A DNA stretch of 53,142 bases from Myxococcota bacterium (GTDB lineage Bacteria > Myxococcota_A > UBA796 > UBA9615 > JAKLKC01). Positions 17,872 through 41,510 of the stretch are shown here, in pieces; within the stretch, counting starts at the first letter, position 1; each line of letters starts with the position of its first letter. The stretch is taken from NCBI GenBank assembly GCA_023150875.1, contig JAKLKC010000047.1, positions 1 to 53,142 of the forward strand, written 5' to 3'. The translations under genes were made by a program, and so were the position numbers. The notes under the pieces are model-generated. The model was not told the DNA's origin and did not search any database. It was given only the letters and a program-made list of their open reading frames with translations.

Positions 17872-17980
17872 CTCTCGGACGTCACGGACAGCGAGCAGGG
17901 CCGACCTCGGGCCCGGCGGGCCGACGAAGGCCGCGCGACCCCCAGGATTCGAGGCCCGCGAGAGGGCCGGGAGCGTGTGG

Positions 17981-19435
17981 ATGTCGGTCTGCGATTCTTG
18001 GCCCTCGGGCCTCGGACGGAGATGTGTGGCGGGCGTGGCGGCGGGCGGTCTCCTGCTGGCGGGGGGGGGCGTGGCCTTCGCGGACGCAGACGCCGACGGC
18101 GACGAGCCGTACTCGGCGGGTGGCTCGGACTGCGACGATCGCGATCCCCTCCTCAACGGCCGGGACGTCGACGGGGACGGCTTCAGCTCCTGCGAAGGGG
18201 ACTGCGCGGACTCCGACGGCGCGACCTTCCCCGACCGCCCCGCCTCGTCGGGGTTCAACCGGGTGTGCACGCCGCTCATCAGCCAGGGAGCGGCGGGGAG
18301 CTGGAACGAGCGCCAGGTGGTCCAGCCCTCGGTGCTGTGGGACGGAACGCGCTACCGCATGTACTACCGGGGGCACTACTCCGCCAGCAGCACGGCCTTC
18401 GGCGTGGCGACGTCCATCAACGGGCGGTCCTGGGCGAACTCGCCCCTGAACCCTGTGTTCACAAAGGGGGCGACCGGGACCTGGGACTCCTTCGGGATCG
18501 CCGGCCCGTGGGTGGTGCACGACCCGGACGACCCTTCCGCCCCATGGAAGCTCTACTACCACGCCAAGGACCAGGTGGCGGGGACCCGAGCCATCGGCCT
18601 GGCGACGTCGAGCAACGGGTACAACTGGACGCGCTACGGCACGGGTCCCGTGCTCGACCACGGCGCCGGGGCGGACTACGACGCCAAGAGCGCCCACGCG
18701 CCGGCCGTCTTCGTGGTGGACGGCGTGTACCACATGTACTACAGCGCCAAGGACGCCACGAGCATCTACACCATCGCCCACGCCACCTCTCTCGATGGCG
18801 GCTACACCTGGAGCAAGGACGCGGACCCCGTCCTGTACGCCAACCCGGGCAAGTGGGACAGCCAGCGCGTGAGCCACGTGTGGGCCCAGCCCCTCGGCGA
18901 GGGCGTGCAGTTCCTCTACTCGGGGGCCAACAACACGGACTTCCTCGCCATCGGCGGCGGGATGGGGGAGGCCACGGACGATCCCTGGTCCCGGGACAGC
19001 GACGATCCCTACCTCTGGGACGGTCCGCCGGGTGCCTTCGACGACGCCGCCGTCTACGGCGGGCAGATCGAGCTCTTCTCGTCCGGGGAGTGGATGTTCT
19101 ACGGCGGCCTGGACGCGCCGGGGGACACCGCGAACGGCAAGATCGGCCGGGCGGTGAACTGGTTCCCCTCCCTCTCGGTGGACGCCGTGGGGGCGGTGAC
19201 CTACGGGCGGCAGGTGGCCATCACGGGCCGGGTCCAGGACACCGCGCCGGAGACCGCCGACGTCTACGTCCTCGATCATCGCCGCCGAGTCCTCGGCTGG
19301 GCCGCCCCGGACGAGGACGGCTGGTTCGAGGTCGTCGTCGACGACTGGCATGGCTACAAGATGTGGTCCGTCGAGGTGTTCGACGCCGGCGGACTCTCCG
19401 CCCGCCGGGACATCAGCCTGACCCTCTCCCCCTGA
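17981..19435 (+). CDS. Exported MopE-motif protein with glycosidase-like five-bladed propeller
   Basis: A 484-residue protein. ATG 17981 was preferred over GTG 17975 because GGGAG ends 7 bases before it. The signal peptide ends near residue 33 (GVAFA-DAD). Two short MopE-type metal motifs follow ('GGSDCDDRDP' and 'DVDGDGFSSCEGDCADSDG', to about residue 75). Residues about 95-385 look like a five-bladed propeller of the GH43/GH32/GH130 style: 'VVQPSVLWDGTRYRMYY', 'WVVHDPDDPSAPWKLYYHAK', 'HAPAVFVVDGVYHMYYSA'. A C-terminal Ig-like domain (about 395-480) has 'VAITGRV…GWFEVVVDDW'. Sugar hydrolysis is possible but catalytic acids cannot be fixed from sequence alone; it may be only a carbohydrate-binding surface protein. 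Confidence 0.75.
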   Translation: MSVCDSWPSGLGRRCVAGVAAGGLLLAGGGVAFADADADGDEPYSAGGSDCDDRDPLLNGRDVDGDGFSSCEGDCADSDGATFPDRPASSGFNRVCTPLISQGAAGSWNERQVVQPSVLWDGTRYRMYYRGHYSASSTAFGVATSINGRSWANSPLNPVFTKGATGTWDSFGIAGPWVVHDPDDPSAPWKLYYHAKDQVAGTRAIGLATSSNGYNWTRYGTGPVLDHGAGADYDAKSAHAPAVFVVDGVYHMYYSAKDATSIYTIAHATSLDGGYTWSKDADPVLYANPGKWDSQRVSHVWAQPLGEGVQFLYSGANNTDFLAIGGGMGEATDDPWSRDSDDPYLWDGPPGAFDDAAVYGGQIELFSSGEWMFYGGLDAPGDTANGKIGRAVNWFPSLSVDAVGAVTYGRQVAITGRVQDTAPETADVYVLDHRRRVLGWAAPDEDGWFEVVVDDWHGYKMWSVEVFDAGGLSARRDISLTLSP

Positions 19436-19710
19436 TCCCACGCCTTCCCGCGAGGATCCGCTCCTCCCCGGGAATCCCCTCCAGCACGCCATCGGCCCCA
19501 GACATCCCTGACGAGGCGGCCTTCCCGGCCTCGGTGGGACCGCTCTTCGTCCCGTGCTCCCGCCCGCGGGCGGATGGGGTCGGGGGCTGGCTACGGCTCG
19601 CCTGATTCGCCGAGCGGAGGCTCGGGCGCGTGCACGTCCACGGACGCGGGCACGGATCCATCATTGCCCATCCGTTTGCCGCCCAGAGCCCCAGGTCTCC
19701 CCGCTCTTCC

Positions 19711-19759
19711 CTCTGTGTTCTCTGTGGGCCCCGGACGGGCCGCTCTGTGCCTCTGTGGG
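19711..19759 (+). repeat. CTCTGTG direct-repeat block
   Basis: Two near-identical units (19711-19728 and 19743-19759) each consist of CTCTGTG, one or two bases, then CTCTGTGGG. They flank a GC-rich 14-base spacer containing a CCCG/CGGG hairpin. The block is non-coding and close to the hairpin array. Confidence 0.7.
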
Positions 19760-19865
19760 CGCGCCAAGGACGGCGAGCCATTTACGACCGCTGGCAGTCA
19801 TCTCGAACCGCGCTGGGTGGCAGCCGGACAGGCATGGAAGAGACCAGGAGGAAAATCAGGCCGGA

Positions 19866-19925
19866 GCGCGCCGGAGTTGGGAGGGGGAGGGGGAGGGGCC
19901 TTCTTTTATTGTTACCCCGGCGCGC
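19866..19925 (+). ncRNA. Hairpin copy 1 with G-rich conserved loop (candidate structured RNA/DNA element)
   Basis: GCGCGCCGG (19866-19874) pairs perfectly with CCGGCGCGC (19917-19925) and encloses a 42-base loop. The loop holds a 31-base core (19877-19907), four G-runs separated by single A's followed by CCTTCTTTT, that is identical to the core of copy 2. The stems of the two copies differ in sequence but both pair, as expected when structure is conserved. GGAAGAGAC lies upstream at 19836-19844. Transcription and strand are unproven. Confidence 0.5.
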
Positions 19926-19943
19926 ACCGACCTGAAGCTTGCA

Positions 19944-19984
19944 GCGACTCCGCCGGAGGGCCCCAAGGAGCCCTGGGGAGTCGC
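19944..19984 (+). other. Middle hairpin between the two G-rich hairpins
   Basis: GCGACTCC (19944-19951) pairs with GGAGTCGC (19977-19984). An inner stem AGGGC (19957-19961) pairs with GCCCT (19970-19974) around an 8-base loop. It sits almost exactly between the two G-rich hairpins and may belong to one structure. Confidence 0.45.
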
Positions 19985-20001
19985 GGACGACTGTGGGAAG
20001 A

Positions 20002-20072
20002 GACGGAACGCGGCGGTTTGGGAGGGGGAGGGGGAGGGGCCTTCTTTTTTGTTTTTCCCGCCGCGTTCCGTC
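20002..20072 (+). ncRNA. Hairpin copy 2 with G-rich conserved loop
   Basis: GACGGAACGCGGCGG (20002-20016) pairs perfectly over 15 bases with CCGCCGCGTTCCGTC (20058-20072) and encloses a 41-base loop. The 31-base core at 20018-20048 is identical to copy 1, 141 bases away, while the stem is different and longer. A second GGAAGAGAC overlaps the stem base (19996-20004). The T-run is inside the loop, so it is not an ordinary intrinsic terminator. Confidence 0.5.
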
Positions 20073-20123
20073 ACTGATACCTATCGGAACGGCCGCCGGG
20101 AACTGAAGCCCGCGGGACTCCCC

Positions 20124-20543
20124 TCAACCCCTTCCGGGACCGGGGCGGGCGAAGCCCACCGGCCGGCTGGGGCCGGCGGTCTCGCGGTGGGCCACGGACA
20201 CGATCCCGTTCTCCTCGTCCAGGAGCACGACCCGGGGGACGTGACGCCTCGCCTCCTCCTCCTCCATGTCCGCGAAGGTGGCGACGATCACCCGGTCTCC
20301 CGGGCGGACGTGATGGGCGGCAGCGCCGTTGATGCAGACGGTGCGGCTGCCCCTCTCCCCCTTCAGGGCGTAGGTCGCCAGGCGCGCACCGTTGGTCACG
20401 TCCCAGATCTCGACCCTCTCGTGCTCCAGGATGTCGGCGGCCTCCATGAGGTCGACGTCGATGGTGACCGATCCCTCGTACTCGAGGTCCGCCGCCGTCA
20501 CCGTGGCCCGGTGCAGCTTGCTTTTGAACATGCTCAGGCGCAT
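20124..20543 (-). CDS. panD: Aspartate 1-decarboxylase proenzyme
   Basis: A 139-residue pyruvoyl enzyme that decarboxylates L-aspartate to beta-alanine for pantothenate and coenzyme A synthesis. The self-cleavage site is present as Gly24-Ser25 in 'EYEGSVTID', with Lys9 and His11 in 'KSKLHRA' and Tyr22. Later '[11 protein letters not shown]', '[16 protein letters not shown]', '[12 protein letters not shown]' and '[10 protein letters not shown]' follow the family closely. ATG 20543 aligns with the E. coli start; an internal ATG at 20531 is less likely. A TATCCT box lies 17 bases upstream. The C-terminus carries about 20 extra residues rich in Pro, Gly and Arg. No other pan genes are nearby. Confidence 0.95.
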
Positions 20544-20637: not shown

Positions 20638-27666
<7,029 letters not shown>

Positions 27667-37010: not shown

Positions 37011-37136
37011 CGGGCGCGTGCCCGTGCCCGAGCCCGTGCCCGTGCCCGAGGGCTGGTGGGCGACGGCACCTCCATCGGATGCCGCAGCCGGGAACGGGCA
37101 CGGGCACCGGCCTTCGGCCTGGGCTCGGGCTCGAAG
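37011..37136. repeat. Dispersed hexamer-arm repeat, copy A
   Basis: Left arm of CCCGTG/CCCGAG hexamers, a unique middle, then a right arm AACGGGCACGGGCACCGG, a GGCCTTCGGCC hairpin and GGGCTCGGGCTCGAAG. The arms are complementary, so it can fold back on itself. It lies between convergent genes and is clearly homologous to copy B. Confidence 0.75.
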
Positions 37137-41390: not shown

Positions 41391-41510
41391 GAGCCCGTGC
41401 CCGTGCCCGCGCCCGCGCCCGAACCGTGGCGGGCAACGGCACCGCGGTCGGACGCCCCAGCCGGGCGCGGGCACGGGCACCGGCCTTCGGCCTGGGCTCG
41501 GGCACGAAGG
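41391..41510. repeat. Dispersed hexamer-arm repeat, copy B
   Basis: It closely matches copy A: a left arm CCCGTGCCCGTGCCCG, a homologous middle (GCGGGCAACGGCACC, GACGCCCCAGCCGGG) and a right arm GGGCACGGGCACCGG, the GGCCTTCGGCC hairpin and GGGCTCGGGCACGAAG. It lies in the divergent gap between the histidine kinase and HEAT genes, so it is not tied to gene ends. Confidence 0.75.

Follow-up and report, generated by a model that had tools for sequence, protein, structure and literature searches.

Two neighbouring hairpins that share one long loop, on stems that differ in sequence while still pairing, raise the question of whether the locus encodes a structured RNA and, if so, from which strand. 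An earlier note on this DNA had proposed a structured element, either an RNA or a protein-bound DNA hairpin. We examined the hairpins within the window (the whole stretch of 53,142 nucleotides), and genome-wide statistics on hairpins and T-runs were based on 400 kb of genome plus the window (453 kb). The hairpins are intergenic, between two convergent genes: an open reading frame on the plus strand (17975-19435), for which no Pfam match was found, and panD, a vitamin-synthesis gene, on the minus strand (Table 1). The structured element described here is real and well formed, lies at one site, and is most likely a minus-strand RNA of putative function.

One duplicated unit with compensated stems

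The positions, the numbers of perfect pairs, the loop lengths and the identical 31-base core (TTGGGAGGGGGAGGGGGAGGGGCCTTCTTTT) given in the earlier note were all confirmed (Table 1). When mismatches are allowed, the inverted arms measure 22 bases in copy 1 (19856-19877/19914-19935, 86% complementary) and 18 bases in copy 2 (19999-20016/20058-20075, 94% complementary), and on the minus strand the perfect pairs of hairpin 1 form part of a more extended stem that counts 21 pairs with 3 mismatches. On each of the two strands, shuffled sequences fold less well than the copies do (z -3.5 to -6.5). Perfect arms of at least 15 bp with loops of at most 80 bases occur in five cases in the 453 kb.

Table 1. 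Coordinates of the hairpin locus and of the adjoining panD gene in the window
Feature	Position	Strand	Evidence or remark
GGAAGAGA ahead of copy 1, part of the duplicated unit	19836..19843		alignment of units
UUUU immediately 3' of the hairpin 1 stem, terminator-like	19852..19855	-	best of 32 T4+ sites, 453 kb
Hairpin 1 (copy 1)	19856..19935, perfect arms with loop 19866-19925	-	9 perfect pairs, 42-base loop
Identical 31-base core, copy 1	19877..19907	-	sequence comparison
C-rich tract with three CCUCC, copy 1	19879..19898	-	plus strand: G-quadruplex motif
Middle hairpin, between both copies, unrelated to them in sequence	19944..19984	-	z -3.0 minus, -2.2 plus strand
GGAAGAGA ahead of copy 2, part of the duplicated unit	19996..20003		alignment of units
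Hairpin 2 (copy 2), first in minus-strand order	19997..20076, perfect arms with loop 20002-20072	-	15 perfect pairs, 41-base loop
Identical 31-base core, copy 2	20018..20048	-	sequence comparison
C-rich tract with three CCUCC, copy 2	20020..20039	-	plus strand: G-quadruplex motif
panD (aspartate 1-decarboxylase), 3' end precedes the hairpins	20124..20543	-	PF02261, E 1.5e-49

Judged by their alignment, the hairpins are two diverged copies of one unit, with homology that reaches past the hairpin itself into the shared GGAAGAGA. The claim that the stems had changed and yet still paired was borne out: the copies differ at 13 of 36 stem positions, while standard pairs are kept at 16 of 18 places in copy 1 and 17 of 18 in copy 2. 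Four pairs have changed on both sides and still pair (C-G/A-T, A-T/G-C, G-C/A-T and C-G/G-C), and two places that are mismatched in the stem of copy 1 are paired in copy 2, which in turn has lost one pair. When 13 substitutions were placed at random in the copy 1 stem, at least 17 pairs remained in 3 of 200,000 trials; with random bases at the very positions that are substituted, at least 17 pairs were obtained in 2.6% of cases. The core shows 0 differences over 31 bases, compared with the 13/36 of the stem (Fisher P = 1e-4). These statistics on compensation and core are indications, as both structure and alignment were chosen post hoc and concern one sequence pair; within the limits of two copies, the proposed structured element, its loop conserved and its stems altered yet still paired, is upheld.

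Template switching could also compensate the stems. A local duplication may have produced a neutral or selfish palindrome in which template switching during replication converts both arms in one event, keeping the stems perfect, so that covariation needs no selection on RNA. The confinement to one locus and a genome rich in palindromes and repeats agree with this explanation, which leaves unexplained the unchanged 31-base core beside diverged stems and the T-run right after hairpin 1; we regard it as possible, if rather doubtful. A second pair of long-loop hairpins in the window (37018-37107 and 41397-41480) is 85% identical over 123 bases, with arms made of GTGCCC repeats of unequal length and CGGCCTTCGGCCTGGGCTCGGGC after both.

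Further copies and genomic surroundings

The check proposed in the earlier note, namely that a covariance model should return many matches with covarying stems, failed. In the 6.9 Mb of its own genome the element has two copies, both at this locus, and two additional matches of the model there have E of about 1. The same two copies were all that the model found among 71 genomes of the class (70 besides its own), and no further copy appeared among 379 genomes of the phylum (378 besides its own; a sample, searched with stricter filters). No copy was found in phages, plasmids or viral contigs. The lists of relatives and of the class contain no genome of the same family; because of this, an element specific to the family or genus would have gone unseen, and the failure to find it elsewhere counts only weakly against the element. 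The Rfam search that had also been suggested gave no family at the gathering score, release 15 possibly being without an alpha-r14 model, and matches at a lax threshold (eukaryotic microRNA, small nuclear and small nucleolar models) were rejected as chance-level.

A 19-base pattern of the core was searched in about 85,000 species genomes and occurred once in Neobacillus soli and once in a metagenome-assembled genome (MAG) of Deltaproteobacteria (L042), two unrelated species. We rejected both matches as relatives, as about two are expected by chance from length alone (an estimate) and the model matched them in the core only. In L042 (2060-2180), a CTCTGTG-type motif that resembles one in the repeat described below stands about 65 bases ahead of the core match, and the joint occurrence of the two is probably a coincidence.

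A MITE-like repeat of about 175 bases lies to the left of the hairpins (19662-19837; loci L008-L036) and has about 40 copies in the genome, with inverted ends CATTGCCTATCCG/CGGATAGGCATGG and CTCTGTG motifs inside. Its insertions show target duplications of 6 bases, with agreement in five or more of the six in 22 of 32 copies versus 0.46 expected; a search on both sides of the copy beside the hairpins found none, which suggests local rearrangement and is consistent with a template-switched palindrome. Another palindromic repeat, GAAACACGCGAAAGGCGCGAAAC...GTTTCGCGCATTTCGTAGTTTC, flanks several copies of the MITE-like repeat (L016, L031, L033 and L034). The idea that the hairpins are part of the MITE-like repeat was rejected, as none of its other copies examined has hairpins alongside. 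Like REP palindromes and MITEs, the hairpins are intergenic palindromes, here with a MITE-like repeat adjoining; unlike them, they are not dispersed, both copies in the 6.9 Mb being here. Integron attC sites, retrons and IS200/IS605 ends were considered as well; what such elements conserve is stems or ends rather than a long loop.

Downstream of 12 panD orthologues of the class, no comparable hairpins were found after the stop, and a link between hairpins and panD across the class was rejected on this ground. The same observation bears on the suggestion that the locus serves as a site where a protein binds, or where Rho loads onto the panD message; its C-rich unpaired loops would then recruit Rho while the stems keep the loops open. 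The unpaired tract downstream of panD is indeed C-rich and G-poor; such a site needs neither identical cores nor compensated stems, and its absence after panD orthologues likewise makes it improbable. Also on the minus strand, the open reading frame at 20638-27666 (2342 aa) carries 21 MopE-like metal-binding motifs (PF11617), FG-GAP repeats and an Ig-like domain.

Strand of the putative transcript

The minus strand is favoured because the loop is C-rich and open there and because UUUU directly follows hairpin 1. The C-tract has a predicted unpaired probability of 0.82 on the minus strand, whereas that of the G-tract on the plus strand, calculated without quadruplexes, is 0.26-0.46, the G-tracts pairing with the T-tract. 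TTTT is infrequent here (6e-5 per base per strand), and hairpin 1 with its UUUU ranks first among the 32 T4+ runs with any upstream stem on both strands; the second-best is a G-U stem within the hairpin 2 loop on the plus strand. No T-run follows hairpin 2, nor either hairpin on the plus strand. As a candidate Rho-independent terminator, hairpin 1 with UUUU is the best such site in the 453 kb, yet it has a long loop (34 bases) and a short T-run. No promoter-like site was found, the sigma-70 consensus being a poor guide in this genome.

The earlier note had considered the plus strand, with its G-rich loop; the quadruplex that it thought possible in each loop is predicted there, while the strand evidence favours the minus strand. 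When quadruplexes are allowed, the G-tracts of the plus strand form one, which folding strongly favours (about -61 versus -45 kcal/mol), and their arrangement as four G-runs with single-A loops belongs to a rare class (8 in 400 kb). The G-runs are followed at once by CCTTCTTTT(TT), in a genome nearly without T-runs (runs of at least six T or A are very rare, 3 in 400 kb), and thus combine quadruplex-capable runs with a T-tract, as the CSB 2 type requires. In CSB 2 of human mitochondrial DNA, G-runs likewise split by single A bases and followed by a T-tract stop transcription through a quadruplex (PMC5027508); the element here differs in being bacterial, duplicated and inside a long paired stem. 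On this precedent, an RNA or RNA-DNA hybrid quadruplex with a U-tract in each copy might halt RNA polymerase on the plus strand, between genes that do converge, the duplicate adding efficiency. Such a stop would account for the core; it does not explain why pairing was kept in the outer stem, whose 3' arms come after the T-tract. In addition, the plus-strand gene ends about 440 bases upstream with the repeat in between, and no bacterial precedent was found, so that we consider a plus-strand stop unlikely.

As the best explanation, which we put forward tentatively, the locus would encode a structured RNA on the minus strand, either as the 3' untranslated region of the panD mRNA or as a small RNA processed from that message, with loops that block Shine-Dalgarno stretches. 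Its parts would follow in the order hairpin 2, middle hairpin, hairpin 1 and UUUU end, and hairpin 1 would both end and protect the transcript. Each of the identical loops would expose an A-rich stretch and then three CCUCC(C) motifs, able to pair with the Shine-Dalgarno stretches (GGAGG, GGGAG) of messages and so to block the entry of ribosomes; the two loops might thus serve as redundant pairing sites on replaceable stems. The minus-strand loops carry CCCCUCCCCCUCCCCCUCCC, the complement of the GGAGG/GGGAG motif that occurs at start sites in this genome: GGAGG precedes 17% of likely ATG starts versus 2.6% of internal ATG codons, and GGGAG 9.7% versus 1.7%. This amounts to a roughly six-fold enrichment of both motifs ahead of likely ATG starts, and the loops could therefore pair with Shine-Dalgarno stretches. 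The sole near match to the 16S 3' end was rejected as rRNA, the stretch holding no RNA family. Transcription, its strand, its termination and the pairing with messages are what we infer from these features. The points against this minus-strand RNA are the two copies at one locus, the lack of any relative in the genomes searched, panD orthologues without hairpins, the missing promoter-like site, a long loop with a short T-run, and the absence of a match to Hfq or DUF1127.

Resemblance to alphaproteobacterial RNAs and possible significance

The locus resembles the alpha-r14/CcsR ("cuckoo") RNAs of alphaproteobacteria. Alpha-r14 RNAs (NfeR1; cuckoo RNAs in related work) act by pairing their loops with Shine-Dalgarno stretches; they have three hairpins whose stems differ strongly while their unpaired regions carry an identical C-rich anti-Shine-Dalgarno motif, CCUCCUCCC (PMC10746234). 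Different but paired stems, by which alpha-r14 RNAs are recognised, are found here as well (13/36 positions differ, 16/18 and 17/18 paired). Unlike alpha-r14, the element carries CCCCUCCCCCUCCCCCUCCC in loops of 41-42 bases beside an A-rich stretch, has its motif in two of three hairpins, occupies one locus and lacks an Rfam match, and its transcript is putative; CCUCCUCCC itself is absent from the hairpin loops.

A similar likeness extends to CcsR1-4 of Rhodobacter sphaeroides (CIN1 locus), a tandem array after a protein gene (PMC10253847) that is cut from one co-transcript with the upstream gene and has a Rho-independent terminator at its end (PMC10253847, PMC7866481); its counterpart here would be the terminator-like hairpin 1 with UUUU. 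The upstream gene is panD here and a DUF1127 gene there. Neither DUF1127 (PF06568) nor Hfq (PF17209), both companions of the known RNAs, had a match in the genome of this bacterium, which is 98% complete. Membership in alpha-r14/CcsR is not claimed because the exact motif, an Rfam match, a DUF1127 partner and an Hfq match are all absent.

A bolder interpretation, to which we give little credence, would see here a multi-hairpin RNA of a new class, one that lies outside the alphaproteobacteria, in an organism with no detectable Hfq, and has loops that are anti-Shine-Dalgarno on one strand and quadruplex plus T-tract on the other. Depending on the direction, one duplicated element could then either regulate many messages or act as a transcription stop.

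In conclusion, the element looks like a candidate small regulatory RNA, so far at one locus only, whose C-rich loops could cover ribosome-binding sites. If it is merely a palindrome kept by template switching, it stands as a caution that covariation between two copies is no proof of RNA. Two copies in one locus with compensated stem differences also offer a natural experiment, on a small scale, as to where selection acts in such an RNA. If the locus is transcribed from the minus strand, the alpha-r14/CcsR design of identical C-rich loops on interchangeable stems would also exist in another GC-rich lineage, apparently without Hfq.
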